In this document: positions 277 to 23,181 of the stretch, piece by piece
Numbering within the stretch: position 1 is the first letter of the stretch
How the letters are laid out: every line of letters begins with the position of its first letter
Assembly (NCBI GenBank): GCA_028821405.1
Contig: JAPPGK010000120.1
Span: 1-32,724 of the forward strand
Length of the DNA stretch: 32,724 bases
Source of the DNA: Gammaproteobacteria bacterium
GTDB lineage: Bacteria; Pseudomonadota; Gammaproteobacteria; Pseudomonadales; Azotimanducaceae
Direction of reading: 5' to 3'
Translations under genes and position numbers: made by a program
Notes under the pieces: generated by a model
The model's database searches: none
The model's input: only the letters and a program-made list of their open reading frames with translations
What the model was told of the DNA's origin: nothing

Positions 277-1932
277 TTATGGCGTGCCGCCGCCTTGGAC
301 GATGTCGTGCGTGCGACCCGCTTCGAAGTCGCCGAATGATTCGGTCTCGCCGGTGGCCCAACGGACAGCCACATCACTGACGCCTGTCTCGCCTGCCAAC
401 CCGAAGTGGACCCGCGGATCGCTCGACGCCACGTAGCTGCCCTCCGGCGCCACGCGTCGATGCTGTCGCCGGGGGCCGACATTGGCCGAGACGGTGGCAC
501 CGTGGGCATCGCGGCCCGTGGTCGTCCGCACGCGGAAACGGATCCAGTTGCCCCGATTCGGCACGCGGTTCATCAACAGATATGGTGGCGCGTCGCGATT
601 GCCGACGACGAGGTCCAATCCGCCGTCGTCGTCAATGTCGCCCACGGCGAGACCGCGACTGGTGTGGATCAGCGTCGCCGTCGTACCACCGGCGGGCAGG
701 ATCTCCTCGAAGCGACCGTCCGACGTGCCCCGCAAGAGCGTGTTGGGTTCCGCGAACTCGTCCCCTTCGTGCTTGGTCTCGCTCGGCGCGACACCGCCGT
801 TGGCCTCGTAGACGTCGAGTCGGCCGTCATTGTCGAAGTCCGCCAATACGACGCCAAACCTCGTGTATCGGCGGCTTGTTGTCGCAAGGCCGACCGCTTC
901 CGTGGCATCGACAAACCAGGCGCCCTCGTTGCGATAGTAGGAATCGGTCTGTGCCGCCAAGTTCACGACCAGGAGGTCCGTGTCCCCATCGTCGTCCGCA
1001 TCCGCCGCAGCGACGCCCATACCGGCCTTGGCGAGTCCATGCGAGTCCACGGCGACACCACGAAAAGCGGCTTCATCCACAAAGCGCAGGCCGCCCCGGT
1101 TGAGCCACAGCTGGTTGACCATCATGTCGTTGGCAACGAACAGATCGGTCGACCCGTCGCCGTCGAAATCGGCGCTCGACACGCCAAGACCCGTCCCGAA
1201 CGCGGCGTTCAATCCGGCTTCGGCGGTCACGTCCGTGAACGTGCCATCGCCATTGTTGCGATACAACCGGTCGCGCATCGGTGCGTTGTAGTTCGTTGGC
1301 GGGCAATAGGTAAGAACACCCGCCATGAAGCAGTCGCGTTCCACGGCCACATTCCAGTGGATGTAGTTGACGACGAACAGGTCGAGATCGTCGTCGGCAT
1401 CGAGATCCGCGAAGGTCGCCGCCGTGCTGTAACCCGGATCGCCCACCCCCGAAGCCTGGGTCACGTCTTCGAAGTTCCCACGGCCATCGTTCTGCAACAG
1501 GACGTTCGGACCGTAGTTGGTCACGTACAGGTCCACGTCGCCATCGTTGTCGTAGTCGCCCGCGGCCACACCGAGACCGTAGCCGCGATCCCCGGCACCA
1601 TGCCCATCTCGAACCTCGAACGTGCCCGCTTCGTTGAAGTAGAGGCGGTTCGACCGGTCGATGGTTTCCGGGGCTTCATCCATATGCAGACTACCGCTCT
1701 GGACCAGGTAGAGATCCAGGTCGCCGTCCCCGTCGACATCCGACAGCGCCACGCCCCCGCCCATGATCTCCGGCATCAGGTGCCGCCCTTCGAAACCGGA
1801 TCGATGGCGGAAGTCGATACCCCGCACCGCCGCCGCTTCCTGGAACCAGACACCCTCCTGGCCGCGCCCGGTTGGCCCGGAACAACCCGCGCACAACACG
1901 CACACCCCGAGTACCGCCAAAGGGCGGTTCAT
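277..1932 (-). CDS. FG-GAP repeat / ASPIC-UnbV (CRTAC1-like) lipoprotein, copy A
   Basis: The 551-residue protein starts with a lipoprotein signal (VLCAGC, Cys17), so it is probably anchored in a membrane facing the periplasm or the cell surface. Seven FG-GAP/VCBS calcium-loop motifs of the DxDxDGxxD type follow (for example DVDGDGDLD, DYDNDGDVD, DFDNDGRLD), the number expected for an integrin-like seven-bladed propeller. About residues 460-548 form an ASPIC/UnbV domain (GRDAHGATVSANV, PEGSYVASSDPRVHFGL). A Cys pair sits in the insert DCFMAGVLTYCPP before the fourth motif. It begins 21 bases after the TPR lipoprotein gene upstream and is probably co-transcribed with it. The biochemical role of the family is not established; a binding or scaffold role is inferred. 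Confidence 0.9.
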   Translation of the reverse strand: MNRPLAVLGVCVLCAGCSGPTGRGQEGVWFQEAAAVRGIDFRHRSGFEGRHLMPEIMGGGVALSDVDGDGDLDLYLVQSGSLHMDEAPETIDRSNRLYFNEAGTFEVRDGHGAGDRGYGLGVAAGDYDNDGDVDLYVTNYGPNVLLQNDGRGNFEDVTQASGVGDPGYSTAATFADLDADDDLDLFVVNYIHWNVAVERDCFMAGVLTYCPPTNYNAPMRDRLYRNNGDGTFTDVTAEAGLNAAFGTGLGVSSADFDGDGSTDLFVANDMMVNQLWLNRGGLRFVDEAAFRGVAVDSHGLAKAGMGVAAADADDDGDTDLLVVNLAAQTDSYYRNEGAWFVDATEAVGLATTSRRYTRFGVVLADFDNDGRLDVYEANGGVAPSETKHEGDEFAEPNTLLRGTSDGRFEEILPAGGTTATLIHTSRGLAVGDIDDDGGLDLVVGNRDAPPYLLMNRVPNRGNWIRFRVRTTTGRDAHGATVSANVGPRRQHRRVAPEGSYVASSDPRVHFGLAGETGVSDVAVRWATGETESFGDFEAGRTHDIVQGGGTP

Positions 1933-1953
1933 CGACGGAATCCGGAACAGGAC

Positions 1954-3399
1954 TCAAGCACCGCCGGGTGGCTGATCATCAACCCTTAAGGACTCGGCGC
2001 TTGCCAAAATATCCCGCGCCGACGCCACGGCCCCCGGATGCGTTCCCAAACGCGCCGCCCAATCGAGCGCCTTGCGGGCCTCGTCGAACCGCTCGACCTG
2101 GCCAAGACTGCGGGCGAGGTGTACGTAGGCCTCGGTGAAGGCGGGATCGGCCTCGGTCGCTTGGCGAAACCGTTCGATGGCTTCGGTCCATCGCCCCCGC
2201 GCCGCTTCCGCCATGCCCGCGGCATCGAGCACGCTCGCGGGGTTCGGGATGCCTTTCGCCAGCGCCACGTCCAATGCGTCGAGACCCTCATCCGTTCGCC
2301 CCTGACGCAGCAGGACCTTGCCTCGTTCCTCGTGCGGGTACGGTTGTGTGGGATTCAGCTCGGCAGCTTTGTCCAAGTGGAACAGGGCCTTGTCGTCTTC
2401 ACGCCAGCGGACGTACAGGCGTCCGATATGGAAGTGGAAATGGTAGCCCGAGGAATGCGTGGACGAATGTGCCGCCACGCCCCGCAAGAGAATCTCGTGG
2501 GCACGGTCCAAGTCGTCGAGATTCAGGTAGGCCCAGCCGAGATTGGTCAACAGGGCGGGGTCAGCCGGGTGCCGCTCCTCCCAATCATGGAGCAACGCCA
2601 ATGCGTCCTCGATCTGGCCGGCAACGAGAAGCTCGCCGGCAAGCGCCATCTGGTTCTTGAAGCCCCACACGTAGTCGGTTTTCTGGTGTTGCCGAGGATC
2701 GAACCATTCCAGGGCTTGTGCGAGCTTGCCGCGCGCAAAGGCAATTCGCGCGTCGTCGTCGCGGCCGAGGTTCCGATAGGCTTCGCCCAACATCCGGTGA
2801 AGTTGCGGGTGACTGTACTCCGGGTTCACCGCCTCCAGCAGTGCCACCGCTTGGCTCGGTCGACCTTGGCGCAACCGGAGCTGCGCCAAGCCGGCGATCG
2901 CGGGCGAACCCGCCCCCAAGTCTTGCGCACGCCGATAGGCGGTCTCCGCCGTCTTCTCGTCACCGCTGTCTAGCGACCATTTGCCCTGCCACAGCCACGC
3001 CGGCACGTAGTCCTGGTCGATGGCAATCGATTGCTCCAGGCTCGCCAGCGCCGCCGGAAGATCGCCATTCTTGCCGAGCAACAGCGCGCGAAAGTACGGC
3101 CAGGAGAACTCCTCGGGATCGAGACCTGCAGCTTGCTCGTAGGTGGCCAGCGCCGCATCCGGAAAGCCGTTCATCTCGTAGGCCATCGCCAAACGACCGC
3201 GAAGTTCACCCGATTGCGGCGCGGCGCGAACCGATGCCAGGAGCTCTGATATCCCCGCCACGATGTCAGGGTCCGCATCGTCGAGCGCGACCGGTGCCAG
3301 CCGATCCACTGATGGCCGGTCACACCCCAGGATCAACAAAAGGGAGCAGGAAGCGAAGGCAACAACCGCCCATTGGAACGCAAACAACCGGCGGTCCAT
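1954..3399 (-). CDS. TPR-repeat lipoprotein, copy A
   Basis: The 481-residue protein has a lipoprotein signal (LLLILGC, Cys26) and then about ten tetratricopeptide repeats to the C-terminus (for example AMAYEMNGFPDAALATYEQA and NLGWAYLNLDDLDRAHEIL). TPR arrays form helical protein-binding surfaces. The ATG at 3399 is chosen because it gives a proper lipobox and has AGGA six bases upstream; the frame stays open 76 codons further without signal-like sequence. An unusual histidine cluster (HSSGYHFHFHIGR) lies in the middle of the array. The gene sits between the AEPAPL-repeat gene (31 bases upstream) and the FG-GAP/UnbV gene (21 bases downstream). It is a clear paralogue of the TPR lipoprotein at 13494, sharing GRLAMAYEMN, a WPYFRA segment and DDARIA.ARGK. 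Confidence 0.88.
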   Translation of the reverse strand: MDRRLFAFQWAVVAFASCSLLLILGCDRPSVDRLAPVALDDADPDIVAGISELLASVRAAPQSGELRGRLAMAYEMNGFPDAALATYEQAAGLDPEEFSWPYFRALLLGKNGDLPAALASLEQSIAIDQDYVPAWLWQGKWSLDSGDEKTAETAYRRAQDLGAGSPAIAGLAQLRLRQGRPSQAVALLEAVNPEYSHPQLHRMLGEAYRNLGRDDDARIAFARGKLAQALEWFDPRQHQKTDYVWGFKNQMALAGELLVAGQIEDALALLHDWEERHPADPALLTNLGWAYLNLDDLDRAHEILLRGVAAHSSTHSSGYHFHFHIGRLYVRWREDDKALFHLDKAAELNPTQPYPHEERGKVLLRQGRTDEGLDALDVALAKGIPNPASVLDAAGMAEAARGRWTEAIERFRQATEADPAFTEAYVHLARSLGQVERFDEARKALDWAARLGTHPGAVASARDILASAESLRVDDQPPGGA

Positions 3400-3430
3400 T
3401 GGCCGTCCTAATGCCTTCGGTCCGAGGCGA

Positions 3431-4351
3431 TCAGTCAAGCAGCGCGTCGCACTTTCGCCGGTTCTCGGCACCGAGTTCAGCGCTTTCGCAGCGCAGACGC
3501 GAGGCTCGAACGGACCCGCCCGACGAGCTTCCGATGCTGTAGCGCTCGCCCAGAAACGCCGAGGTGCGTACGACCTTGACAGAGTCGCCACGCTCGAGCC
3601 GGCTATGGGAAGCGCGCTCGGTCTCAAAGAGCAGCTTGCCGTCCAAGACGACGAGTTGCCGGTCGTACATCAGCTTGCGCACACCGGTAACTTGGGCCGT
3701 GAATCGCTTGGGGATTTCCAAGACCGTGCTCTCCAAGCTGCGCTCGGTGATTTCAGGAACCTTCGGCTCGGCCACGGGGTGGTCAGCTTTCGGCACCGCG
3801 CCAGCAGGTTCGGCCTTCGGCACGGCGACGACAGGCTCATTGCCCCGGCCCAACCGAGGCACGCGCAACACTCGCCGCCACCACGGGCGTTCGGCATCGG
3901 GCGCCGCCGGCTCGGCCGACGGTGCCGGTTCGGCCAAGGGTGCCGGTTCGGCCAAGGGTGCCGGCTCGGCCAAGGGTGCCGGTTCGACCAGCGGTGCGGG
4001 CTCGGCCAAGGGTGCGGGTTCGGCCAAACGTGCCGCTTCCGCGAGTGGCGCCGGTTCTGCCTGCTCTACCGGCGCCTCCGCCTGCCCCGCCTCTTCGACA
4101 TCCGATGGCAGATCCTCATCGGACTCGTCGCCCTGATAGCGGGCGATCACGCCGTCGTAGCACTCCTTCCGGCGCTCCTCGTCATCGATGGCCGCGCAAC
4201 TCAGCATCATCAAGCAGAATGGCTGCTCGGCCTTGGGCAGCTTCAAACAGTCCTGTTCGTCCGCCAAGGCAGGTGTGCCGAGAGCGAGGGCCAGAGCTAG
4301 CGCGGCTGTCGCGTGGAACCGTAGCGACCTCAAGCCGGTTCGGGCTAGCAC
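3431..4351 (-). CDS. Secreted protein with AEPAPL repeat and C-terminal SH3-like beta domain
   Basis: The 306-residue protein from the GTG at 4351 begins with a Sec signal peptide (cleavage near TPALA/DEQD, residue 30). Residues 31-72 are a small Cys-containing domain with four cysteines (35, 46, 52, 64) ending in ECYDGVIARYQ. This resembles the ACYD-type segment I recall in many proteobacterial hypothetical proteins. Residues 98-148 are a low-complexity array of six-residue AEPAPL units, a likely stiff spacer. Residues about 216-288 (VTGVRKLMYDRQLVVLDGK...) look like a small beta barrel of the kind often paired with the ACYD segment. It is followed closely by the TPR and FG-GAP lipoproteins. 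An ATG at 4408 is an alternative start but would give an overlong Arg-rich signal. Function unknown. Confidence 0.8.
   Translation of the reverse strand: MLARTGLRSLRFHATAALALALALGTPALADEQDCLKLPKAEQPFCLMMLSCAAIDDEERRKECYDGVIARYQGDESDEDLPSDVEEAGQAEAPVEQAEPAPLAEAARLAEPAPLAEPAPLVEPAPLAEPAPLAEPAPLAEPAPSAEPAAPDAERPWWRRVLRVPRLGRGNEPVVAVPKAEPAGAVPKADHPVAEPKVPEITERSLESTVLEIPKRFTAQVTGVRKLMYDRQLVVLDGKLLFETERASHSRLERGDSVKVVRTSAFLGERYSIGSSSGGSVRASRLRCESAELGAENRRKCDALLD
3908..4060 (-). repeat. 18-base tandem repeat encoding AEPAPL units
   Basis: On the plus strand the unit reads ggttcggccaagggtgcc and recurs about eight times with small changes. It lies inside the gene at 3431-4351 and encodes repeated Ala-Glu-Pro-Ala-Pro-Leu, with variants such as LVEPAP and SAEPAA. 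Near-identical units in frame suggest expansion by slippage, so the array may vary in length between strains. Confidence 0.85.
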
Positions 4352-4417
4352 ACACCACCCGGCTGATCGGCGCGGGACGCCGCAAGGGCGTCGCCTACAC
4401 GCTCGCATACCACGCAA

Positions 4418-4433
4418 CCCCGTTCGAACGGGG
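4418..4433. promoter_or_regulatory. Perfect 16-base palindrome, possible operator
   Basis: CCCCGTTCGAACGGGG is fully self-complementary with no loop. It lies immediately beyond the T-tract of the TonB receptor terminator and upstream of the AEPAPL-repeat gene. A loop-free dyad is more typical of a dimeric repressor site than of a terminator, but no promoter was recognised next to it. Confidence 0.3.
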
Positions 4434-4434
4434 C

Positions 4435-4473
4435 AAGAAAAAGCCCGGCCACGGCAGAGCCGTCGCCGGGCTT
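4435..4473 (-). terminator. Intrinsic terminator of the TonB receptor gene
   Basis: On the minus strand a nine-pair stem AAGCCCGGC/GCCGGGCTT encloses a second five-pair stem (ACGGC/GCCGT) with a three-base loop. It is followed directly by TTTTTCTT. It starts about 20 bases after the stop codon of the receptor gene. Stem, closing position and T-tract all fit a rho-independent terminator acting on minus-strand transcription. Confidence 0.88.
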
Positions 4474-4493
4474 CAACTTCGCTCATCCTGAGA

Positions 4494-7400
4494 CTAGAAG
4501 CCCAGGGTGAGTCGGGCGAAGCCGATACGGCCCATGATGTTGTCCACGTAGGTCTCGTGGCCAACACCCGTCGGCATCGGGTCGGGATAGGTATCGAATA
4601 GGTTGCGCATGGCAACGTTCAACGACACGTACCCGAAGCCCATGAAGTCGGGACGGTTGTAGGTGTAGCTGATGTCCCAATAGTGCCTGGAGTCGATCTT
4701 GCAGTACGGGTTGCGGTCCTGGTCGGTGCAGGAATCCGACTCCGTCCAATCCGCGATCGGTCGCCCGTTGTGCGTCCCGCCCCGGTCGATTGCCCCGGGG
4801 ATATCCTCGATCTCGTCCCACGACGCCGAGATGTCCGTCAACGAATCGTGCCAGCGGACCGATAGCTGCATGGTGTGGTTGGCATAGAGCCAGCGCAGAC
4901 CCAGATTGACCCGCCACTCCGGCGTCGGCGGCAATGGCCAGAACAACTCGCCACCGAGAACGCCCGCACTCCAGTTGGCGTTGTTGCGGTTGCCGACGCC
5001 GTCAACGCGGATTGCCTCGAAGCGATGTCCGCTGCCCTCCGCATACCGCAGCAGGCTCAGTTCGAGCATCTGCGTCGCGCTCAGCCTGGTCTCGAAGGTG
5101 CCGTAGTCACCGCCGATGAAGGGAATCTCGTCCGAGTCGAATCGGAAACGCCCTGCGTAGATGATCGTGTCGGTGATCTGCGAACCCTGGTTCAACCACG
5201 GGTTGCCCGCCTCCAGGAGCCGGATGTTGTCGGTCTCCGCTCCCGGGCCGGGCCCACGGACCAGGACGGCCCCGCCAAGACCCCTTTCGTGGTTCGCGAC
5301 CCAATCGATCGCCGCTTGGCGACGACACTGGAGTTCCTGTTCGACCGTGCCCTCCCAATCGGGCGAACCGTTCATGAGGAACTCCGCCGGGGTGATCATG
5401 GTGGCATCGGGGCCGAGCGCGCTCACGTTGTCGTAGTTCAGCAACGAGTTGGGACAGGCTGCCTGCATGAACGGCCGGAACTCGATCTCGTTGTGGTTGA
5501 CATTGGCGCCAGCCCCCAAGCGCTCGACACGGCCTTCGAACTCGACGGTCGTGTAGTCGACGTCGAAGGAAAGGTCCCCGTCCATGAAGCGCAGCGAGAC
5601 GCCCGCATTCCAGAGGTCGGACTCCTCCGCCCCGAGGCTCGCGTTACGGGTGGATGGCGTCAGCACGTTGGTGATGGCACCACCCGACGCACCGCCGCAA
5701 TCGGGCAGCTCCGGCATCAGGTCACAGATGTAGTCGCGCACCGTGGAACGGGAATTCGGGTTGGAAGTGGTCTGGAAGAGCTGGAACATCCCGGGCAGGA
5801 CGAATCCCTGGGTAAGGCTTGCACGCACCGCCAGCCACTCCGTCGGCGCGTAGCGGATCGCCACCTTGGGGATCGTCGTATCGAATTGCGCGCTATCGCC
5901 GCCCGAGATAATCGAGCCTCGTCCCTCGAACTCGGCGTAGCGGCCCGCGATCTGGACCTCCATGTCGCCCCACCTGGGACTGTTGATCAACGGCAACTGC
6001 AGTTCCATGTAGACCGCGCGGGTCTCCTCCTCCGTGTACTGGAAGTCGGCGCGTGCCGAGCCCAGTGCCGAGGCACCGAACTGGTTGGGGCGGTATTCCT
6101 CGGACTCGAGCCGATAGTGGATGCCTGCCGCCAAGCCAACGGGACTGTCGTTGTACCAGAGGTCGAACAGCCGCGTGTTGCTCACCGTGGCATCGATGAT
6201 GTTCATGCCGAGGTTGCGCTGGTCGTGGCGGAGCAACACACCCGCATTCCGATGCTCGAGGGTCGTGTTGGCCGCCGGATCGTCGGGGTCCCGCCACGCC
6301 GGCAGGATCTGGCCGTCCTCGGTGGAATCGAGCCAGGCCGTGCTGAACGGGTTCCAGCACTGGTCGCCGAACTGGCCGCCCTGGCAGCGCATCGAGGCGA
6401 CGGTCCAGTGCGATACCGGCTCGGCATAGTCCTCTTCGCGTTTGCTGGTCGCCCAGATCCAGTCGAAGTCCAGGTACCACTCGGTCTCCGGGATGTTGAA
6501 TTCGGTCCCTAGGCGGATCCGCAGGTTGTCGATCTGCCGGCGGCGGCTGTAGGACATGTCGTCGTTGATCCAGGAGATCGTGTTGCCGTGGGGCTGCTTC
6601 GGCGCGATGGACATTTCCTCCATCCTCACGTCCTCGAATAGCCGCACGCCCCCGTTGCCGACCATGTCGGGGTCGAACCGGTCGGGAATGCCGTCGCCGT
6701 CGGAGTCGGTATCGATGGGCAGCAGCACGACGCGGTACTCGGGATTGCGCTCGAAGCCCGAACAGTCGAGCGATGCGCCCGATCCGGTGCAGTCGGCAAG
6801 ACCGTCGCCGTCGGCATCCCGGTCCGGAATCCCGTTGCCGTCCGAATCCTGGGCGAAGAGCAGGTACTCGCCCGGCTCCTGCAGGTAGTCGTAGACGCCG
6901 TTGCCGTTCTCGTCGACGTAGTCGAGTTCGTTCCTGCGGTTGCAGTTCTGCGAGGAAACAAGAGACCCGGTCGCAAACCCGGCCATGACCGCCTCTCGGG
7001 TCGCCCCATCAAAGATCAGAGGGAAACACGCCCCGTTGTTGAAGCCCAATGCGCTGGAACCGTCGGCGAAGGCCCGGAACGGGTTGCCGGGGTTCGAACC
7101 GATGGCGATGGCCGTGTTCCTGCCGTAGCGGTTGCGGCGGTCCCATTCGTCGATGTTGCCGACCACGTCGCGGGTGTCGTAGTCCATACCGGAGACGACG
7201 ATTTCGCCCTTGACCTTCAGATAGTCGTTCAGGCTGTGCTCGAAGTAGCCCATGCCCTGCTGCTGGTCGCGCCGTTCGCGGATGTCCTGGTAGTCGGCGA
7301 TCACCTGACGGCAATCGTCGCGGTTGCCCGGCTCGTCGCCTTCGGATCCCTCCCACCATGAGATGCCCCGATGGCCCCGCCAGTCCGGGCCCGCGCCGGT

Positions 7401-8567: not shown

Positions 8568-8895
8568 TAGACACCCCTCGAGATGTTGCATCTTGATCCC
8601 CACAGGCCACCGGGCCTCCCGGTTCGGTAGCCACCATTGGCCGAAGATATGCCTCTCAACAGGGCGAGTCAACACCGTTTCGACACATTCTGTAACATCT
8701 GTCCGAGAGACCCCAAGCGCGAACGGCAGCCGCGCCGCGTCCCGGCCTGCCCAACTGGGTTTATTGGGGTTGGCAGCCGATCGGATTCCCCCGCCGCGAA
8801 ACGGGCGGGCGTCATTTGCCCGACAACTTTCGGCGACCATCCGCCGACGCAGGTGCTCTCTGGTGGCCCGCCGTGAGCGGGCTCAAAAAGCGGGC
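8568..8895. other. Non-coding stretch upstream of the TonB receptor
   Basis: This 328-base stretch separates the receptor start from the decayed coiled-coil gene. It holds the receptor promoter (8644-8672) and a leader of about 70 bases. I see no other convincing gene, hairpin or riboswitch; short open frames here are Arg/Pro-rich and lack start signals. Confidence 0.55.
8644..8672 (-). promoter_or_regulatory. Sigma70-type promoter of the TonB receptor gene
   Basis: The minus strand reads TTGACT (8672-8667), exactly 17 bases, then TATCTT (8649-8644). The -35 matches five of six consensus bases, the -10 four of six, with ideal spacing. Transcription would start near 8637, about 70 bases before the receptor ATG. 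Confidence 0.6.
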
Positions 8896-9219: not shown

Positions 9220-9341
9220 AGTGGGCGGCGTTATACACTTAGACGATCAAGGGCAGTGACCCGCCGCTGAAGGTGGCCGGCTTCGTGGGCAGACTTGAAA
9301 CGATGATCCCCGACAGGCAAGCACGGCGCTCGAGAGGCAGC

Positions 9342-12545: not shown

Positions 12546-12624
12546 GCCCGCGTTGACAAGGTGTTTGCGGGCGGCGACTGGCCAAAGCGAGTAGACTCGC
12601 AAGCGGTGCTTTGGGGAATTCGCT

Positions 12625-13428
12625 ATGAACGAGGGTGATCCTGCGGACCTCCATGGAACATGCCGTAGCGCCCCATCGCCGGGTCCGGTGCCTGGCTGGC
12701 GCTCGACCGTCGCGTGGATGGTCGTGGCGGTGTTGACAGGGCTTCATGCGGCCGCCACGCCGGAACGGGCCGCATTGACCGAAACCAACGCCGCAAGCGA
12801 GGCACAGGGCGACGAAGCGTTGATCGAAGACGAGATCAAGGTCATTGGCGAGCGGAGACCGCTGACCCTCGAAGAACGGATGCGCATCTACCGGGAGCTC
12901 GCCAGAGCCCGGGACCTCTATTCCAGGAACGAGATCGACGAAGCGTTTCCGCTGCTTCTGAAGACCGCACGCAAGGGATTCAAGAACGCGCAGGCGCGGG
13001 TGGGGCATATCTACCTACGCGGTCTCGGCAACGTCGAACAGGATCCGGTGGAAGCCATCGGCTGGCTTGGCGTCGCTTCCGCCGGAAACACCTCGCCGCC
13101 CATACGCAACTACTTCAACGACATCTGGAAACGCATCCCAGACAAGTACGTCGACAGCTTCGAGGAGGTTGTGGAGGAATACCGAGGCAAGTACGGCGAG
13201 AACGCCACGGGCGTGGTGTGCGAGTTGCACCGTCCCCTGCGAACCTTCGTCAAGCAGCTCACCTGCTATTTCGAGCAGGATCTGCCCGACACGGTTCGGG
13301 AGCCTCTCGACGAATACATGGATGGCGACGAGCGCCGACGCCTGATCCGAGAAAACGAAGAGCGGATACGGGCGTACATCCAGTCGCGGCGGGGCCTGCC
13401 CGCGCAGGAAGCCGAAACGCCCCCATAG
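12625..13428 (+). CDS. Sel1-like repeat protein, membrane-anchored or secreted
   Basis: The 267-residue protein has a hydrophobic segment at residues about 28-44 (STVAWMVVAVLTGLHAA), probably a signal peptide or anchor after a 25-residue N-terminal tail. The mature part starts with EDEIKVIGERRPLTLEERM. Residues about 92-155 form a helical Sel1/TPR-like unit (RARDLYSRNEIDEAFPLLL, AQARVGHIYLRGLG, PVEAIGWLGVAS). A Cys pair (CELHRPLRTFVKQLTCYF) follows, then a charged helical tail. The start has GGGGA seven bases upstream. It lies 79 bases after the giant lipoprotein gene and 65 bases before the TPR lipoprotein, so a four-gene plus-strand operon (9342-16612) is plausible. The role is probably protein binding in the periplasm. 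Confidence 0.82.
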   Translation: MNEGDPADLHGTCRSAPSPGPVPGWRSTVAWMVVAVLTGLHAAATPERAALTETNAASEAQGDEALIEDEIKVIGERRPLTLEERMRIYRELARARDLYSRNEIDEAFPLLLKTARKGFKNAQARVGHIYLRGLGNVEQDPVEAIGWLGVASAGNTSPPIRNYFNDIWKRIPDKYVDSFEEVVEEYRGKYGENATGVVCELHRPLRTFVKQLTCYFEQDLPDTVREPLDEYMDGDERRRLIRENEERIRAYIQSRRGLPAQEAETPP

Positions 13429-13493
13429 CCGTACCTCTCTCGAAGACGGTCGTGTTCGAAGAGACACTGTCAGCCGTTGACGAGCCCTGCTAC

Positions 13494-14915: not shown

Positions 14916-16612
14916 TCGCTCCCCGCAGCTTCACACGTCCCGCGGTCTGGTCCGTGCTTTGGACAATCCTGCTCATCGGCTGTGCGCAAGAGGACGAGGG
15001 ATCGGCACCTTGGTTCGTCGAGGAGGCCGGGCCACGGGGCATCGGCTTCATACATCGTTCCGGTTTCAACGGGCGACCGCTCCTCCCCGAGATCACCGGC
15101 AGCGGTACCGCCTTGGCCGACCTCGACGGCGATGGCGACCTCGACGCCTATCTCGTCCAGGCCGGCAGCCTCTGGGACGATGCGACCGTCGCCCGAAGCG
15201 GAAACCGACTGTTCCTGAACGACGGCACCGGCCACTTCGTCGAAGCGCCCGATGGCCACGGGGCCGACGACCCGGGTTACGGCATGGGCGTGGCGGCCGG
15301 CGACTACGACAACGACGGTGATGTGGACCTGTTTGTCACCAACGTCGGTCCCAACGTGCTGCTGCGCAACAACGGCGATGCGGTCTTCGAGGATGTGTCG
15401 GTCGCCGCCGGCGTCGCGAACGCCGGCTGGGGAACGTCCGCCGCCTTTCTGGATTTCGACGGCGACGGGGATCTCGACCTCGTTCACGCCAACTACATCA
15501 ACTGGTCACGCGCTACGGAGATGGACTGCTACCTCGGTAGTCTGCTGACCTACTGCCCGCCGCTCGCCTACAACTCCCCCGCCGGGGACCGGTTGTACCG
15601 GAACGACGGCGACGGCACGTTCACAGACTGGACGGCCGAGTCCGGCATGGACCGCGCCTTCGGCAACGGCTTCGGCGTCGTCGCCGCCGACTTCAATGCC
15701 GACGGGCTGATCGACTTCGCGGTGGCGAACGACATGACCGTCGATCACTTGTGGCTGAACCGGGGCGACCTCGCCTTCGAGGAACGCGGCAACCTATGGG
15801 GAAGCGCCGTGGACGAGCACGGCGTCGCCAAGGCCGGCATGGGCATCGCCGCCGCCGACATCGACCACGACGGCGACCCCGACTTCATGGTCGTCAACCT
15901 GCAAGGCCAGACGGACTCGTTCTTCCGCAACGAAGGTGGCTTTTTTCGCGATGCCACGGCGGAACTTGGGCTCGGGACAACGGGACGCTATACGCGGTGG
16001 GGTATCGCGCTCACCGACTTCGACAACGACGGCCACCTGGATCTCTACGAGGCCAACGGCATGGTCGGCACCGAGACCCGCGACGAACAACCCACCCAAC
16101 TGGATTTCGACGAGCCCAACGTGCTGTTCCGAGGCACGCCCGAGGGACGGTTCGAAGAGGTCGTGCCCCGCGGCGCGGTCGTGCCGGCCCTGGTGCACAC
16201 GAGCCGCGGGTTGGCCGTGGGGGATGTCGACGGCGATGGGGGCCTGGACTTGCTCATTGCCAACCGCGACGGTCCTGCCTACCTGCTGATGAACCGGGCG
16301 CCTGCGCGCGGTGACTACGTGCGGTTCCGCGCCGTGCTCGGGGAACCGGGCCGCGACGCCCACGGTGCCACCGTGTCCGCCGTCGTCGACGGCAAGCGCA
16401 TCTACCGCGACGTCAGGCCCGAGGGGAGCTATCTGTCGTCCAACGATCCCCGGGTTCACTTCGGACTTGGCAACGTTACGCAGGTGGTGGACGTGAGGGT
16501 GGTTTGGCCGTCGACCGGGAAAGGGCATCCCGCGGTGGAATCGTTCGGCGACTTCCAGGCCGGGCAGACGGCGGTTCTCCGGCAGGGGACGGGCACGGCC
16601 GTCGACCGCTGA
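14912..16612 (+). CDS. FG-GAP repeat / ASPIC-UnbV (CRTAC1-like) lipoprotein, copy B
   Basis: The 566-residue protein starts at a GTG overlapping the upstream stop and has a lipobox (LLIGC, Cys24). Seven FG-GAP motifs follow (DLDGDGDLD, DYDNDGDVD, DFDGDGDLD, DFNADGLID, DIDHDGDPD, DFDNDGHLD, DVDGDGGLD). About residues 475-560 are the ASPIC/UnbV domain (GRDAHGATVSAVVDGK, PEGSYLSSNDPRVHFGLG). The insert DCYLGSLLTYCPP carries the same Cys pair as copy A. Blade order, spacing and linkers match copy A at 277-1932, so the two genes are close paralogues. It is probably a calcium-stabilised propeller working with the coupled TPR lipoprotein in the periplasm or at the outer membrane; the ligand is unknown. 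It converges with the FG-GAP gene on the other strand, with 70 bases between stops. Confidence 0.9.
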   Translation: MIAPRSFTRPAVWSVLWTILLIGCAQEDEGSAPWFVEEAGPRGIGFIHRSGFNGRPLLPEITGSGTALADLDGDGDLDAYLVQAGSLWDDATVARSGNRLFLNDGTGHFVEAPDGHGADDPGYGMGVAAGDYDNDGDVDLFVTNVGPNVLLRNNGDAVFEDVSVAAGVANAGWGTSAAFLDFDGDGDLDLVHANYINWSRATEMDCYLGSLLTYCPPLAYNSPAGDRLYRNDGDGTFTDWTAESGMDRAFGNGFGVVAADFNADGLIDFAVANDMTVDHLWLNRGDLAFEERGNLWGSAVDEHGVAKAGMGIAAADIDHDGDPDFMVVNLQGQTDSFFRNEGGFFRDATAELGLGTTGRYTRWGIALTDFDNDGHLDLYEANGMVGTETRDEQPTQLDFDEPNVLFRGTPEGRFEEVVPRGAVVPALVHTSRGLAVGDVDGDGGLDLLIANRDGPAYLLMNRAPARGDYVRFRAVLGEPGRDAHGATVSAVVDGKRIYRDVRPEGSYLSSNDPRVHFGLGNVTQVVDVRVVWPSTGKGHPAVESFGDFQAGQTAVLRQGTGTAVDR

Positions 16613-16682
16613 ATAGCGTCGCGGGACCATGCGCGAGCGCTCGTGGATCGGCGCCCGGGGTTGCGGGATCGGGCAAGCGCCC

Positions 16683-18518
16683 CTACGGTTCGTTGTCCGG
16701 CGGTTGCCTTGCCAACGTGTGGTAGCGGTCGACGGCAAGGGGGCCGTAGGTTCCCTCCTCGCCGTCGGACCAACGTACGCGCACCCGGCGCGCCGATGGA
16801 TCGGTGCCGAGTCCGAACAAGACGCGCGGATCGTTGGCCGAGGCGTAGCTGCCGTCCGTGGACACCCGCCGCGCGCCGCAGCCGACTGGGTCCAGCCACA
16901 CGCGGCTTCCAGGGGCCGCGTCGCCCACCAACTCAAGGCCGATCCAGTGGCCACCGTCCGTGTCGTTCCGGTAGAGCCGCGCAGGCCCGCGGTTGTTGGT
17001 AACCAGCAGATCCAGATCGCCATCGTTGTCGAAGTCGGCGAACGCGGTGCCCCGGCTGACCTCCTCGCGTTCGAACGCCGGAAGGAGAACCTCCGCATAG
17101 CGATCGGCGTCGTTGCGCCAGAACTGGTTGCGCTGACGTAGCGGCAAACCCAACGGCCCGGTTTCCTGGCCGGTGATCGCCGTGACGGCCCCGTTGGCCA
17201 CGAACAGGTCGAGGTCGCCGTCGTTGTCGACGTCGAACCAGCCGGTGCCAAAGCCGGTGAACGGAATGCTCGCCGCCGCGACGCCGTGGGCATTCGTGCG
17301 GTCGGCGAACCAGCCATCGCCTTCGTTGGCGTAGAGCGTATTGGTCTGCGCGGCCAGGTGGGTGACGAAGATGTCGATGTCGCAGTCCAGGTCGAAGTCC
17401 TCGGCATCGATGCCCATGCTCGCCTCGACGTTGCCGTCGCCGTTGACCGCGACGCCTGCCAACAGGGCGTTGTCGACGAAACGCCGCCCTCCCTGGTTCA
17501 CCCAAAGCCGGTTCTCGTTCATATCGTTGGCGACATAGAAGTCGATGTCCCGGTCGCCGTCGAAGTCGTCCGCGATCACGCCCAAGCCGGCGCCCCGGAC
17601 CTTGCCGATTCCAGCTTCCATCCCGATTTCGACGAACTTGAACCCGCCCAGGTTTCGGTAGAGACGATCCACCGACGGCGTGTAGACCTCCGGCGAGCAG
17701 TAGCTCGGTGCTCCGGCACCGTCGCGGCAGACCTTGTGGCCAGCCACCGTCCAGTCGACGTAGTTGGCCACGTACAGGTCGGGCAGGCGATCGCCGTCGA
17801 CGTCGGCGAAAGAGGCGCTGACCGACCAGTCGTCGTCGACCAGACCGCCATCCGCCGTCGCGTCGCGGAACCGGCCGTCACCCAGGTTCTCGAACAGTTG
17901 GTTGGCGCCGTGATTGGCGACGAATACGTCGAGGTCGCCGTCGTTGTCGACATCGGCGGTGGCGACCCCCATGCCGTAGCCGCTGGCACAGACGCCGGCC
18001 TGTGCGGTGACGTCCTCGAACTTCAACTCGCGGGGAGTGGATACGTTTCGGTAGAGCCGGTCGCAGGGAAGGTTCCCGGAACGGTCGTCGAGCGGTCCGC
18101 CTTGCACGAGCCAGATGTCGACGCGGCCATCGTCGTCGAAGTCGAAAGCGGCGGCACCCGCGCCCATGATTTCCGCGAGCCACAGCTCCCCGGCCATGCC
18201 GTTCACATGGGTGAAATCGAGGCCGGCTCGCCCGCCGACATCCACGAAGCGTGGCTCGGCGTACCCCAGCGCGACGACCGACATGAGGAGAACCGCACCG
18301 TATCTACGACAACGTATTCGCAGGGAATCCGTACGAGGTGTGGACGAACCCGTCGAGGACGGGCTCGCCCCGTCCCGCGCCGACCGTCGCCTTGACGCCG
18401 CGGCGTCGCGAATCCGGGCGACTGCTAGGGGCCGCCCTGGTGTTGATTCCATGCGAGCGAACACTTCGTGGTCGAGGCGGCACCGACCGCCAGGCAACAA
18501 GGGACGGATTTGGTTCAT
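16683..18518 (-). CDS. FG-GAP repeat / ASPIC-UnbV (CRTAC1-like) protein without a TPR partner
   Basis: From ATG 18518 the protein has 611 residues. Seven FG-GAP motifs are present (DFDDDGRVD, DVDNDGDLD, DVDGDRLPD, DFDGDRDID, DFDLDCDID, DVDNDGDLD, DFDNDGDLD) and an UnbV domain at the end (TDGSYASANDPRVLFGLG). The insert VCRDGAGAPSYCSP keeps the Cys pair. The start is unresolved: the likely signal peptide (RRYGAVLLMSVVALGYA) begins only near residue 72, behind an Arg/Ser-rich stretch that looks non-coding. Starts at ATG 18452, CTG 18323 or ATG 18284 are alternatives; none has a clear ribosome site. No lipobox is seen, so it is probably a soluble periplasmic or secreted protein. It is transcribed divergently from the cytochrome gene and is the only propeller here without a TPR neighbour on its strand. 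Confidence 0.85.
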   Translation of the reverse strand: MNQIRPLLPGGRCRLDHEVFARMESTPGRPLAVARIRDAAASRRRSARDGASPSSTGSSTPRTDSLRIRCRRYGAVLLMSVVALGYAEPRFVDVGGRAGLDFTHVNGMAGELWLAEIMGAGAAAFDFDDDGRVDIWLVQGGPLDDRSGNLPCDRLYRNVSTPRELKFEDVTAQAGVCASGYGMGVATADVDNDGDLDVFVANHGANQLFENLGDGRFRDATADGGLVDDDWSVSASFADVDGDRLPDLYVANYVDWTVAGHKVCRDGAGAPSYCSPEVYTPSVDRLYRNLGGFKFVEIGMEAGIGKVRGAGLGVIADDFDGDRDIDFYVANDMNENRLWVNQGGRRFVDNALLAGVAVNGDGNVEASMGIDAEDFDLDCDIDIFVTHLAAQTNTLYANEGDGWFADRTNAHGVAAASIPFTGFGTGWFDVDNDGDLDLFVANGAVTAITGQETGPLGLPLRQRNQFWRNDADRYAEVLLPAFEREEVSRGTAFADFDNDGDLDLLVTNNRGPARLYRNDTDGGHWIGLELVGDAAPGSRVWLDPVGCGARRVSTDGSYASANDPRVLFGLGTDPSARRVRVRWSDGEEGTYGPLAVDRYHTLARQPPDNEP

Positions 18519-18595
18519 GGAGCGTATGATACGAGCCCATGCCGGACCGTCGTTCTCGGCGTGCAAACCAACCCCCCGCCCATGAATTCACTCGA

Positions 18596-21331
18596 ATGAA
18601 CAACGGCACCAAGCGCATGGCGATCCCGGTTGTCGGACCCGGAATGCGCAAGCTCCTGGTGTTCGTGCTGGTCGTGTTCGCGCTGCTGGTGGTCAACTCC
18701 GCCTACCTGGGTGCGATCACCTACCGCGAGTGGCTGACCGGCGAGAGCCTGGAGGACGCGGTCTATCTTTCGATGTTCCTCGGCCACCTGTTGCTCGGCC
18801 TCGCGATCACCGTCCCCGTTGTGGTCTACGGCGTCATGCACCTGCGCCGTGCCATCGGCCGGCCCAACCGCCTGGCGGTGCGCTTGGGGGTGGCGCTCTT
18901 CGCCTGCGTCATCCTGCTGCTCGCCACGGGGTTCGGCCTGACCCGCGGTATTCCGCTGATCGAGTTGCGCGACCCCGCCTGGCGATCGCTGGCGTACTGG
19001 GCACACGTCGCCGCGCCGCTCGTCATCGGCTGGTTGTTCGTGCTGCATCGCCTGGCGGGGCGTCCCATCCGGTGGTCGGCCGGGGTCGGCATCGGCGTGA
19101 TCGCCATCGGGGTCGGAATCTTGAGCATCTGGCTTGTCGAGCCCCGTCACCCGGTCGCCGAGGGCGACGTGGACTTCCTGCCCGCCTTGGCCCGTACGTC
19201 CACCGGCGGCCACATCGTTCCCGAGGAATTGATGCGCGACGACGAATGCGCGCGCTGCCACCCGGACGCCCACGCGCAATGGCAGTTCAGCGCGCACCGT
19301 TTCGCGTCGTTCAACAACCCGGCGTACCTGTTCTCGGTGAGGAACACCCGCAACGCCGTGCTTGCCCGGGACGGCAACGTCCATGCCGCCCGTTTCTGCG
19401 CCGGGTGCCACGACCCCGTACCGCTGTTCAGCGGCCGTTTCGACGACCCGGAATTCGACGATGTCCACGACCCCACGGCGCATGCCGGGATCACCTGTGT
19501 AAGTTGCCATGCGATCGAGGCCATCGGCAGCGTGCGCGGCAACGCCGACTTCGTCATCGGCGTGCCCGAGCGCTATCCCTTTTCACGTTCGGCAGATCCC
19601 GTCGCCACCTGGCTGAACGACTTTCTCATCAGGGCGAAACCGGCGCTGCACAAGCGCACCTTCCTGAAGCCCCTGCACAAGTCGGCGGAGTTCTGCGGTA
19701 CGTGCCACAAGGTGCACCTGCCCGTGGCGCTCAACCACTACAAGTGGCTGCGCGGCCAGAACCACTACGATGCGTTCCTCCTAAGCGGCGTCTCGGGGCA
19801 CGGTGTCACGAGCTTCTACTACCCGCCCCAGGCGGAGGAGAACTGCAACCGCTGCCACATGCCGCTTCTCGAATCCGACGACTTCGCCGCGAAACGCAAC
19901 GACGATAGCGGCGCGTTGACGGTGCACGGGCATCACTTCCCCGCGGCCAACACCGCGCTCGCGCACCTGCTCGCCTTCCCCGACTCGGTCAACGAAGCCC
20001 ACCGGGAGTTTCTCGAGGGTAGCCTGCGGGTGGACATCTTCGGCATCCGCTCGGGCGCTGCCATCGATGCGCCCTTGACCGCGCCCCTGCGTCCCGACGT
20101 TCCGGCCCTGTTGCCGGGCGGCGAGTACCTCGTCGAAGTGGTGCTCCGAACGCTGACCCTCGGTCACACCTTCACGCAGGGGACTGCGGATTCGAACGAG
20201 GTCTGGCTCGAGGTCACCGCGACGAGCGGCGATCGGCTGATCGGCATCAGCGGCGGCCGGAACCCCGACGACGGGGCCGTCGACCCGTATTCGCACTTCG
20301 TCAACGCCTACGTCCTCGACCGCGACGGCAACCGCATCGACCGGCGCAATGCCGAGGACATCTTCACGCCGCTCTACAATCACCAGATCCCGCCGGGGTC
20401 GGCAAGCGTTGCGCATTACCGCTTGACGGTACCCGAGGACCTCGACGTACCGCTCGTCGTCGCGGCGCGGCTCCACTACCGGAAGTTCGACACGATCTAC
20501 ATGCGCCACTTCCAGGGCGAGGCGTTCGCCGGAAACACCCTGCCGATCATCACCATCGCGAGCGACGAGGTCGCGTTTCCCGTCGCGGGGGCAGCACAGC
20601 ACCGCGCCCCGGACATTCCCATCTGGCAGCGCTGGAACGACTACGGCATCGGCCTTCTGGCCAAGCCGGACCGGGGCGCCCTGCGCCAAGCCGAGGCGGC
20701 GTTCCAGCAGGTCGCGGACTTGGGCCGGGCCGAAGGGGATCTGAACCTCGCCCGGGTGCTGATCCGCGAGGGGCGCCTCGACGAGGCCGCCGATGCGCTG
20801 CGCCGCGCGGCGGCGAATGGCGCCTATCCCTGGTCCGTGGCGTGGTTCGGCGCCTTGGTCGACCTCCAGAACGGCGAGTTCGACGCCGCCATCGACGGCT
20901 TCACGGCGTTGGCCGAGACCCGCTTCGAGGAAGCCCGGCGACGAGGCTTCGACTTCTCGCGGGACTACCGAATGCTGAACACCTTCGGGCGAACCCTGTT
21001 CGAACGCGCCAAGTTGTCCGTCTCGCCCGAGGACGAGCGCCAATGGCTCGAGGCCGCAGCCGACCGCTACCGCCAGGCGCTTGCCATCGATCCCGAGAAC
21101 GTCGCCGCCCACTACGGAATGGCGCAGGTGGCGGCCCGGCTCGGAGACCCCGAAACGGAGGCACGTCATCGGCGCCTGCACAACACCTACCGTCCCGACG
21201 ACAATGCCAAGGACCGGGCCATCGCCGCCGCGCGCCGCCAAGACCCGGCGGCGAATCATGCCGCCGAAGCCGTCGTGGTCTACGACCTGCAGCGCCCGGG
21301 CACATTCGGTCTTGAAGAGCGGCCACCGTGA
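18596..21331 (+). CDS. Membrane-anchored pentaheme cytochrome c with C-terminal TPR region
   Basis: The 911-residue protein has five predicted transmembrane helices at about residues 19-42, 58-82, 94-118, 131-152 and 160-182. A periplasmic domain with five CXXCH haem sites follows (CARCH 218, CAGCH 268, CVSCH 301, CGTCH 367, CNRCH 417). This resembles the cytochrome c554-type multihaem fold; it should carry electrons. About residues 480-670 are beta-rich without haem sites. Residues about 685-880 are TPR-like (DLNLARVLIREGRLDEAADAL, YRQALAIDPENVAAHYGMAQ). ATG 18596 is chosen over 18539 for lack of any signal in between; ATG 18644 (MRKLLVF) is also possible. The stop overlaps the GTG of the next FG-GAP/UnbV gene, so the two are probably coupled. 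No catalytic residue pattern for a known reductase was recognised, so the electron donor and acceptor are unknown. Confidence 0.9.
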   Translation: MNNGTKRMAIPVVGPGMRKLLVFVLVVFALLVVNSAYLGAITYREWLTGESLEDAVYLSMFLGHLLLGLAITVPVVVYGVMHLRRAIGRPNRLAVRLGVALFACVILLLATGFGLTRGIPLIELRDPAWRSLAYWAHVAAPLVIGWLFVLHRLAGRPIRWSAGVGIGVIAIGVGILSIWLVEPRHPVAEGDVDFLPALARTSTGGHIVPEELMRDDECARCHPDAHAQWQFSAHRFASFNNPAYLFSVRNTRNAVLARDGNVHAARFCAGCHDPVPLFSGRFDDPEFDDVHDPTAHAGITCVSCHAIEAIGSVRGNADFVIGVPERYPFSRSADPVATWLNDFLIRAKPALHKRTFLKPLHKSAEFCGTCHKVHLPVALNHYKWLRGQNHYDAFLLSGVSGHGVTSFYYPPQAEENCNRCHMPLLESDDFAAKRNDDSGALTVHGHHFPAANTALAHLLAFPDSVNEAHREFLEGSLRVDIFGIRSGAAIDAPLTAPLRPDVPALLPGGEYLVEVVLRTLTLGHTFTQGTADSNEVWLEVTATSGDRLIGISGGRNPDDGAVDPYSHFVNAYVLDRDGNRIDRRNAEDIFTPLYNHQIPPGSASVAHYRLTVPEDLDVPLVVAARLHYRKFDTIYMRHFQGEAFAGNTLPIITIASDEVAFPVAGAAQHRAPDIPIWQRWNDYGIGLLAKPDRGALRQAEAAFQQVADLGRAEGDLNLARVLIREGRLDEAADALRRAAANGAYPWSVAWFGALVDLQNGEFDAAIDGFTALAETRFEEARRRGFDFSRDYRMLNTFGRTLFERAKLSVSPEDERQWLEAAADRYRQALAIDPENVAAHYGMAQVAARLGDPETEARHRRLHNTYRPDDNAKDRAIAAARRQDPAANHAAEAVVVYDLQRPGTFGLEERPP

Positions 21332-23181
21332 CCGAGCAATCCGGAGATGCCGAGCGTCCCGACGGCGAGCAGCGAATACGACGCGCGCTACGCACCTCGC
21401 TCGTCGTCGCGGGCGTAGTCGCCACAGGCGCGGTCGCGGTCTTCTCCCTGATCACGCGCGAGCCTGCCGTGGTTCCGCCCGCCGAACATCGACCCGCGGG
21501 ACCGAACCTGCCCGAGACCACCGTCTCGGCCCTGCCGGCACTGCGGTTCACCGACATTACCCGCGAGGCCGGCATCGACTTCGTCCACGAAGACGGCGCG
21601 TACGGTGAACGCCTGCTGCCCGAAACCATGGGCGGCGGCGTCGCGTTCCTCGACTACGACAACGACGACGACCAGGATCTGCTGTTCGTCAATTCGGCGA
21701 CGTGGCCGTGGCGTCCGGCACCCGCCACACCGTCCACCTCAAGGCTCTACCGGAATCGCGGCGACGGCTCGTTCGAGGACGTCACCGAGACCGCCGCCCT
21801 GGACGCCGTGCTCTATGGGATGGGTGTTGCCGTCGGTGACTACGACGGCGACGGATTCGTCGACATCTTTGTCACGGCCGTGGGCGAGAACAGGCTGTTT
21901 CGGAACCTGGGCGGCCAGCGCTTCGCGGACGTGACGGTCGAAGCCGGCGTCGGCGGAAGCCCCACGGCGTGGAGCACCAGCGCGGCTTTCGCCGATATCG
22001 ACGACGACGGCGACCTCGACCTCTTCGTGTGCAACTACGTCGCCTGGTCACCCGAAATCGACCGGGAGGTCGACTACCGCCTGACGGGCATCGGTCGTGC
22101 CTACGGACCACCGACCGACTTCCCGGGTAGCGACTCGTACCTCTACCGGAACGACGACGGGAAGTTCGTCGATGTTTCCGCGGCAGCCGGCATCGTCGTC
22201 GCCAACCCCGCCACCGGTCAACCGGTGGGCAAGGCGCTGGCCGTGTTGCCGGCGGACGTGGACGGCGACCATCGCGTCGATTTCGTCGTGGCCAACGACA
22301 CCGTGCGCAACTTCCTGTTCCTGAACCAAGGCGAGGGCAAGTTCCGCGAAGCCGGGGTGGACATGGGACTCGCCTTCGACAGCGGCGGTGCCGCCACCGG
22401 CGCGATGGGCGTCGATGCCGCCCGGTTCGACAACGACGGCAAGCTCGCGGTGGTCATCGGGAACTTCGCCAACGAGATGTCTTCCTTCTACGTTTCACGA
22501 CCCGGCGAACGGCTCTTCAGTGATGACGCCATCGTCTCCGGCGTGGGGGCACCGAGTCGTCGCGCGTTGACCTTCGGCGTGTTCTTCTTCGACGCCGACC
22601 TTGATGGACGCCTGGACGTGCTGGCGTCGAACGGCCACGTCGAACCCGAAATCCAGCGCGTGCAGGCCAGCCAAACCTATTCTCAGCCCACGCACTTGTT
22701 CTGGGATTGCGGGGTCGACTGCCCGCGCCGCTACGCGTTGCTGGACCAAACCGGCGACCTCGACAAACCCATTGTGGGTCGCGGCGCAGCCTACGCGGAC
22801 ATCGACCTCGACGGCGACCTCGACGTTGTCCTCACCCAAGTCGGCGGACCAGCGGTGCTGTTCCGCAACGACCAGGCACTCGGCCACAACTGGATACGCC
22901 TAAGACTCGCCTCGCAATCGCCGAACCCGCATTCTCTCGGCGCCGTCGTGACGGCTGAAGTTGCCGGCCTTCGGCAGGTCCGGGTCGTAAATCCGGCCCG
23001 AAGCTACCTGTCTCATGTCGAGCTGCCCGTCACCTTCGGGCTGGGTACATCGACATACGTAGACGAATTGACCGTGCGCTGGCCAAGCGGCGCTCGGGAG
23101 ACGTGGGCGAACCTCCCCGCCGGTCGCTCCTACGTGCTTCGCCAGGGCGGAGCGGAACGGGAGTCAACCGAGCCTCAATAG
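21328..23181 (+). CDS. FG-GAP repeat / ASPIC-UnbV (CRTAC1-like) protein coupled to the pentaheme cytochrome
   Basis: The 617-residue protein starts at a GTG inside the GTGA overlap with the cytochrome stop. A single N-terminal hydrophobic segment (residues about 22-42, SLVVAGVVATGAVAVFSLI) without a lipobox suggests an inner-membrane anchor with the bulk in the periplasm. That differs from the two lipoprotein copies and fits its membrane-bound partner. Seven FG-GAP-type motifs follow (DYDNDDDQD, DYDGDGFVD, DIDDDGDLD, DVDGDHRVD, RFDNDGKLA, DADLDGRLD, DIDLDGDLD), then an UnbV domain (NPHSLGAVVTAEVAG, LPVTFGLG). The fifth motif is degenerate, and the Cys pair found in the other three stand-alone propellers is missing (ripe segment DYRLTGIGRAYGPP). 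The 3' end overlaps the convergent coiled-coil gene by seven bases. Confidence 0.9.
   Translation: MTEQSGDAERPDGEQRIRRALRTSLVVAGVVATGAVAVFSLITREPAVVPPAEHRPAGPNLPETTVSALPALRFTDITREAGIDFVHEDGAYGERLLPETMGGGVAFLDYDNDDDQDLLFVNSATWPWRPAPATPSTSRLYRNRGDGSFEDVTETAALDAVLYGMGVAVGDYDGDGFVDIFVTAVGENRLFRNLGGQRFADVTVEAGVGGSPTAWSTSAAFADIDDDGDLDLFVCNYVAWSPEIDREVDYRLTGIGRAYGPPTDFPGSDSYLYRNDDGKFVDVSAAAGIVVANPATGQPVGKALAVLPADVDGDHRVDFVVANDTVRNFLFLNQGEGKFREAGVDMGLAFDSGGAATGAMGVDAARFDNDGKLAVVIGNFANEMSSFYVSRPGERLFSDDAIVSGVGAPSRRALTFGVFFFDADLDGRLDVLASNGHVEPEIQRVQASQTYSQPTHLFWDCGVDCPRRYALLDQTGDLDKPIVGRGAAYADIDLDGDLDVVLTQVGGPAVLFRNDQALGHNWIRLRLASQSPNPHSLGAVVTAEVAGLRQVRVVNPARSYLSHVELPVTFGLGTSTYVDELTVRWPSGARETWANLPAGRSYVLRQGGAERESTEPQ

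Follow-up and report, generated by a model that had tools for sequence, protein, structure and literature searches.

To our knowledge, CRTAC1-type propellers have no agreed molecular role, and we know of no tetratricopeptide repeat (TPR) partner for CRTAC1. The present analysis concerns five FG-GAP propellers, together with the TPR modules and the TPR-tailed cytochrome encoded beside them, on a gammaproteobacterial contig (JAPPGK010000120.1 of assembly GCA_028821405.1, Azotimanducaceae). This stretch of 32,724 nucleotides, hereafter the window, makes up one entire contig (C51); the genome measures 4.77 Mb in 122 contigs and is 97.6% complete. The partnership between TPR modules and UnbV propellers is real and limited to part of the family, and its cytochrome version is probably an undescribed, quinone-linked periplasmic electron-transfer system.

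CRTAC1/ASPIC-UnbV propellers combine PF07593 with PF13517, and four window proteins (P0001, P0006, P0007 and P0009) match both models, FG-GAP_3 repeats and UnbV_ASPIC, above the Pfam cut-offs. Whereas CRTAC1 has no known TPR partner, propellers described here occur next to TPR modules or in one protein with them, and one clade of them goes with a cytochrome. A 2010 title cited in PMC3123361, a paper that treats the calcium blades of FG-GAP propellers, presents the CRTAC1 type as known from bacteria to vertebrates. An ASPIC/UnbV gene is listed among Solibacter paralogues (PMC3174227), and bacterial integrin-type propellers are covered in PMC3192720, in which a term search gave no matches. In hydrazine-synthase-like (HZS) clusters, found in Planctomycetota among others, a CRTAC1 gene likewise stands beside haem-enzyme homologues (PMC12758564), and a term search of that text gave no match for TPR. 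Searches of an article library found no description of the TPR/propeller/cytochrome combination.

The cytochrome, P0008, resembles the cytochrome c554/c552 superfamily in its c region. What sets it apart is the number of haem motifs (five), conserved histidines in an N-terminal membrane region, and a TPR tail at the C-terminus. NapC/NrfH and CymA are membrane quinol dehydrogenases of multihaem chains, built from a one-helix membrane anchor and a multihaem c region. P0008 likewise combines membrane anchoring with a multihaem c region, but has five predicted helices, four conserved histidines, a TPR and a downstream propeller gene. In SusC/SusD uptake systems, a TonB-dependent receptor adjoins a helical-repeat lipoprotein of the envelope, an arrangement also seen at some of the present loci; here, however, there is no SusD family match, and a propeller lipoprotein and a cytochrome version are present.

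TPR modules beside UnbV propellers

The initial annotation described five FG-GAP propellers in the window, four of them with a TPR module on the 5' side, and open reading frames, translations and Pfam bear this out. The three architectures that it distinguished were confirmed in the named genes: these four comprise two lipoprotein pairs, one fused lipoprotein, and a propeller coupled to a preceding pentaheme cytochrome that ends in a TPR tail. Cell location was read from lipoboxes and hydrophobic segments in the sequences. On the minus strand, the TPR lipoprotein P0002 (1954..3399; TPR_19, 1.9e-30; lipobox-like ILGC) lies directly upstream of the CRTAC1/UnbV-type FG-GAP propeller P0001 (277..1932; PF13517, 4.5e-44; PF07593, 6e-13), with a gap of 21 bases; P0001 has a weak lipobox and is a possible lipoprotein. 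On the plus strand, the TPR lipoprotein P0005 (13494..14915; TPR_19, 2.1e-28) overlaps by four bases the UnbV propeller lipoprotein P0006 (14912..16612; PF13517, 1.5e-44; PF07593, 3.7e-15), whose sole PDB sequence match at E up to 0.1 is murine CRTAC1 (9etn). Also on the plus strand are the fused TPR and FG-GAP lipoprotein P0004 (9342..12545; TPR_16, 4e-9; FG-GAP_3, 3.5e-22) and the membrane cytochrome P0008 (18596..21331), with five CXXCH motifs and a C-terminal TPR tail, which overlaps by four bases the UnbV propeller P0009 (21328..23181; PF13517, 1.4e-34; PF07593, 4.5e-18), a protein with an N-terminal hydrophobic segment. The fifth propeller, P0007 (16683..about 18284, minus strand; PF13517, 3.7e-36; PF07593, 4.2e-11; start uncertain, reading frame open to 18566), is divergent from P0008 and has no same-strand TPR gene upstream. 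UnbV had been assigned to all five propellers. Four carry it by Pfam, but in the fusion P0004, which has no Pfam match to UnbV, a UnbV-like stretch emerges solely when profiles are aligned with each other (94% probability by hhalign, E 1.2e-7).

Whether TPR genes are more frequent near UnbV genes than near other secreted genes, a check that the initial annotation had proposed, was examined in 80 loci fetched with the propeller alignment A1 and selected for likeness to the window propellers. Five of these (L075, L085, L086, L100 and L115) yielded no FG-GAP gene, and 104 genes carry FG-GAP and UnbV. The closest relative found with this alignment is a locus of a gammaproteobacterial metagenome-assembled genome (L065, 60%), followed by Planctomycetota. 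A TPR gene lies directly upstream of 38/96 testable UnbV propellers against 3/99 secreted controls (Fisher 6e-11), and directly downstream of 30/99 testable propellers against 4/89 controls (Fisher 2.5e-6), the controls being secreted genes of at least 200 residues from these loci, at a distance of more than two genes. TPR is fused to the propeller in 9/104, and fused, upstream or downstream in 65/104. Eight of the nine fusions are TPR-first and one is propeller-first, and three are of the P0004 type (L087, L097 and L140). The profiles for TPR, FG-GAP, UnbV and receptors derive from matches obtained within this analysis; genes were called and signal peptides assigned by custom rules, so that errors occur among the starts, genes and 'secreted' labels.

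In the window's class, an unselected sample covered 94 genomes, with 31 regions and nine random control regions. After two of its 37 matches from other genomes had been dropped as below cut-off (G086 and G075), the other 35 gave 33 two-domain propeller genes. TPR lies upstream in 3/30 of these against 0/67 secreted genes, and downstream in 3/31 against 0/62 (Fisher 0.03 each); in all, TPR is adjacent or fused in 5/33, so that TPR adjacency is not a general property of the UnbV family. The excess near UnbV genes thus leaves standing the claim that TPR and propeller act together, through non-random adjacency across several phyla and natural fusions, but only for part of the family. Placement on the 5' side holds in the window (4/5) but is no general rule. 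An obligatory 5' position was rejected on the upstream and downstream counts above, as was a TPR partner for every UnbV propeller on the class sample.

The whole genome contains 17 PF07593 matches, of which the 32.7 kb window accounts for four; the 14 control genomes contain none. Under a strict rule (same strand, gap at most 300 bases), 5/17 propellers of the genome have a TPR neighbour. Outside the window, one pair lies on contig C89 (TPR 19329-20762, propeller 20759-22441), with TonB-dependent receptors on both sides. On the minus strand of C84, a TPR gene (88872-87472) is followed by two propellers and fails the strict rule by gap length, given the start chosen by the gene caller; a reverse-order pair, propeller then TPR, lies at C84 95609-98661, with a sulfatase gene directly upstream (stretch C84:93360-97282). 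A mirror-tree test on five pairs of this genome gave r 0.96, reached in 5/120 permutations, and rests largely on one distant pair. Four other propellers of the genome, of 1173-1244 residues by gene call, carry a long C-terminal extension (C84:69089-72823, C11:92211-95837, C92:13088-16609 and C105:132025-135624); the last of these, the one scanned, matches the vanadium chloroperoxidase domain VCPO_2nd (PF22778).

A cytochrome and its propeller clade

P0008 opens with five predicted helices that bear four conserved histidines, continues through a pentaheme c region and a beta region, and ends in a TPR. Its CXXCH motifs stand at residues 218, 268, 301, 367 and 417, and the TPR helices of its model span 676-882. 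Pfam Cytochrome_C554 (PF13435) scores 29.2 bits against a cut-off of 20.8, and the match is confined to residues 236-324 of the 930-aa reading frame. The c region matches cytochrome c552 5ze8 with a profile E of 2.3e-6; the match of P0008 to the NrfH model has an E of 0.007 only. P0008 and nine homologues align over most of their length; by record titles these come from Planctomycetota, Verrucomicrobia, Gemmatimonadetes, Sulfotelmatobacter, Thioalkalivibrio and one further bacterium. The TPR tail is present on cytochrome homologues from several phyla. An AlphaFold model of P0008 (mean pLDDT 72.7, pTM 0.67) is confident in the TPR part and not in the haem region.

The profile of the P0008 family, A3, was searched on its own, with E limits of 1e-40 for the window's class and the phylum of L066 (Planctomycetota), and 1e-100 for the phyla of L087 (an acidobacterium) and L125 (Verrucomicrobia). 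Counting shorter relatives, it matches 10/274, 59/199, 38/149 and 2/145 genomes, respectively; near-full-length cytochromes occur in 48/199 sampled genomes of the planctomycetal phylum and 25/149 of the acidobacterial one. An FG-GAP gene lies directly downstream of the cytochrome, on the same strand, at 55/66 testable loci in four groups, or 51/62 without the alignment seed loci, of which there is one in each group. The loci examined were 12/12 matches in the class, the best 30 of 83 and the best 30 of 41 in the L066 and L087 phyla, and 2/2 in the L125 phylum; among them, the propeller follows in 6/8 TPR-bearing loci of the class (including L195, a contig-end fragment), 26/28, 21/28 and 2/2. 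Five contig-edge loci (L192, L238, L239, L294 and L303) stand outside the 66, and two planctomycetal loci, L217 and L219, are near-identical. No third gene is evident by order and size in 20 cytochrome neighbourhoods, where neighbours were left unclustered and L243 and L252 are miscalled.

The propellers beside the cytochrome are also related to one another. In a tree of 169 propellers, 31/32 of those directly downstream of a cytochrome fall in one clade of 35 tips (support 1.0), which includes P0009; the exception is L134_2. The genomes of the other four tips (L274_12, L143_9, L076_4 and L099_0) hold the cytochrome elsewhere. For G117 and the L143 genome, no propeller lies downstream of the cytochrome, and the partner therefore seems to have moved; in G117, the matching clade propeller heads the operon of a P0004 homologue. 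In the genomes of L076 and L099, a cytochrome is followed by a propeller of its own, to which the clade member is additional. A check of genomes found the cytochrome in 5/5, two of which (L104 and L065) had not been picked for the clade; the mere presence of the cytochrome therefore says little.

Conservation of histidines was read from an alignment of 80 distinct cytochromes, with four duplicates removed, of which 75 contain the membrane part. H64 and H137 are present in 75/75 of the latter. H82 and H151 are both present in 59, both lost in nine and singly lost in seven (Fisher 1e-6), as would be expected if both ligate one b haem. This pattern suggests two putative b haems in the membrane, one of them dispensable. 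Outside the membrane, nine histidines are invariant in 80/80 rows, five of them in the haem motifs. The four others could be distal haem ligands, which leaves one haem without an invariant distal histidine; that haem may form an open catalytic site. Strict CXXCH motifs number five in 68 rows and four in 12.

The fused lipoprotein and the lipoprotein pairs

P0004 comprises model TPR helices (36-189), model propeller strands (233-565), a UnbV-like part within 562-661 and a C-terminal region (653-1067). Homologues of 1112-1212 residues occur at L066, L070, L087, L097, L140 and L141. Its last 415 residues have no Pfam match at E up to 1 in the four members scanned, and A5, a profile of this region, has no PDB sequence match at E up to 10. 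The AlphaFold model (mean pLDDT 70, pTM 0.41) is confident in the TPR part but leaves the relative placement of TPR and propeller unreliable; its best PDB match is murine CRTAC1 (E 4e-12).

P0004 keeps company with the cytochrome. A5 matches 5/274 genomes of the class, including that of the window, all among the ten with an A3 match (hypergeometric 2e-8). Cytochrome loci led to nine genomes, eight of which hold a P0004 relative that covers the C-terminal region, a figure that is partly circular because five of the nine supplied the alignment; the independent figure is 3/4. The relative adjoins the cytochrome or its propeller in G275, G276, G280, G281 and G282, shares the contig in G274 and lies elsewhere in G277 and G279. 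Within the class, it is adjacent in G005 and about 6 kb off in the window. A carbon-nitrogen hydrolase gene is directly coupled to the P0004 homologue at L066:7221-8222, L070:7431-8330 and L141:2210-3190; the nearest curated models for the hydrolases of L066 and L141, far below cut-off, are formamidase and aliphatic amidase. As a constant partner the hydrolase was rejected: close homologues (60-67% identity) were found in 3/8 genomes tested (G005, G062 and G117, all with P0004), and the window's genome and G196 hold P0004 with distant homologues only.

The lipoprotein pairs have different neighbours. In the window, the TonB-dependent receptor P0003 (4494..8840, minus strand; PF00593, 7.8e-17; PF07715, 8e-8; coding start probably downstream of 8840) lies upstream of the P0002-P0001 pair on the same strand. 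With groups assigned by record titles, receptor-like genes stand within two genes at 9/30 Acidobacteriota loci, where they make up 10/110 near genes against 1/89 genes five or more away (Fisher 0.025). Seven acidobacterial neighbours all match CarboxypepD_reg and OMP_b-brl_4 in Pfam, and 'TonB-dependent' is partly inference for them because the TonB Plug is above cut-off in only one. A TonB receptor as constant third gene was rejected, with none within two genes at 25 Planctomycetota loci; the receptor profiles were seeded from acidobacterial and window receptors, and other receptors could be missed. The initial annotation envisaged specialised versions of one TPR-propeller complex. Distinct versions do exist, but they are not one system, because the propeller of the cytochrome pair forms its own clade and lipoprotein pairs in some lineages adjoin genes like those of TonB-dependent receptors.

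Several other features lie near these genes. Between the receptor gene and P0002 is a 259-aa reading frame (3431..4210, minus strand, by gene call) without Pfam match. A 236-aa reading frame (12718..13428, plus strand) shows weak Sel1 similarity below the Pfam cut-off; at L104, a gammaproteobacterial metagenome-assembled genome, phmmer finds three tandem homologues of it (genes 5-7) between TPR-propeller pairs. At L120, L274, L276, L278, L279, L280 and L281, a separate TPR family (about 500-590 residues) is encoded after the propeller of the cytochrome or ahead of the P0004 homologue; the stretches of the window's own genome that were compared contain no close homologue of it. Beyond P0009, positions 23346-23687 hold short repeats whose minus strand reads, by eye, as a repeated coiled-coil-like peptide, and two tandem ABC-transporter-like genes follow on the plus strand (23964-26408, by Pfam, and 26497-28530, by eye).

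Competing explanations and a proposed mechanism

A TPR-propeller partnership outside the cytoplasm, put to both cytochrome and lipoprotein uses, appears reasonably likely as a whole. The TPR solenoid would be a docking scaffold for a calcium-type UnbV propeller. In the cytochrome version, P0008 would be an inner-membrane b/c cytochrome with two b haems in the membrane and five c haems in the periplasm, its C-terminal TPR would dock the membrane-anchored propeller P0009, and P0004 would be a third, looser component. P0008 would link the quinone pool to a partner or substrate in the periplasm by moving electrons between them. In the lipoprotein version, P0002/P0001 and P0005/P0006 would be envelope pairs, probably binding accessories at the outer membrane. 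We infer the TPR-propeller contact, the cell location, the haem b, the quinone link and the direction of electron flow. A more tentative extension, which we regard as possible, is an undescribed envelope respiratory system in which a cytochrome with two b and five c haems recruits its own propeller by its TPR tail; further parts would be a TPR-propeller lipoprotein of the outer membrane and, in certain genomes, a relative of amidases.

Several observations weigh against the proposed partnership. TPR adjoins or is fused to few of the unselected propellers of the class; 11/66 testable cytochrome loci have no adjacent propeller, seven of them acidobacterial; and the shorter, TPR-less multiheme matches L193, L194 and L196, outside the 66, have no downstream FG-GAP gene. 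Five of the 80 distinct cytochromes (L307-L311) have no membrane part, so the quinone link is not universal, and a propeller still follows in three of them. Within the P0008 model, the haem region is poorly supported (pLDDT of about 46-78 by block), and the 50 matches listed in the PDB fold search with this model are TPR-containing proteins only. Receptor-like genes are absent within two genes of the planctomycetal loci, and the Fisher and hypergeometric values take no account of shared ancestry.

Three other explanations bear on the same data. SusD has a TPR-like fold, and the TPR lipoprotein could act like SusD and, jointly with the propeller lipoprotein, provide a lid and a binding platform at the surface for a TonB-dependent receptor nearby; nutrient uptake would then be central and the cytochrome pair a side branch. 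The receptor P0003 upstream of P0002/P0001, the receptors flanking the C89 pair and the acidobacterial enrichment (9/30 loci; 10/110 near against 1/89 distant genes) fit this idea, which we nonetheless think unlikely: no SusD model is among the matches of P0002 and P0005, the planctomycetal count is 0/25 (some receptors could be missed by the profiles), and the cytochrome pair is left unexplained. The TPR module might instead act as a chaperone that helps to assemble or export the propeller, not as a stable partner. TPR is an established general docking fold and the two are separate genes in most adjacent cases, but fusions hold both domains in one protein and cytochrome homologues of several phyla come with a built-in TPR tail, and this explanation seems improbable. 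Passive linkage, in which numerous propellers and TPR proteins cluster in islands of exported proteins without joint work, would account for the patchy occurrence (5/33) and for propellers that stand alone, including P0007. It is very hard to reconcile, however, with the excess over secreted controls in the same loci (38/96 against 3/99), the four-base overlaps, fusions in both orders and a propeller clade beside the cytochrome.

A propeller clade tied to one cytochrome in several phyla offers a testable setting for the role of CRTAC1-type propellers. If the proposed partnership is true, it would add a widespread and so far unassigned electron-transfer module to Planctomycetota and Acidobacteriota.

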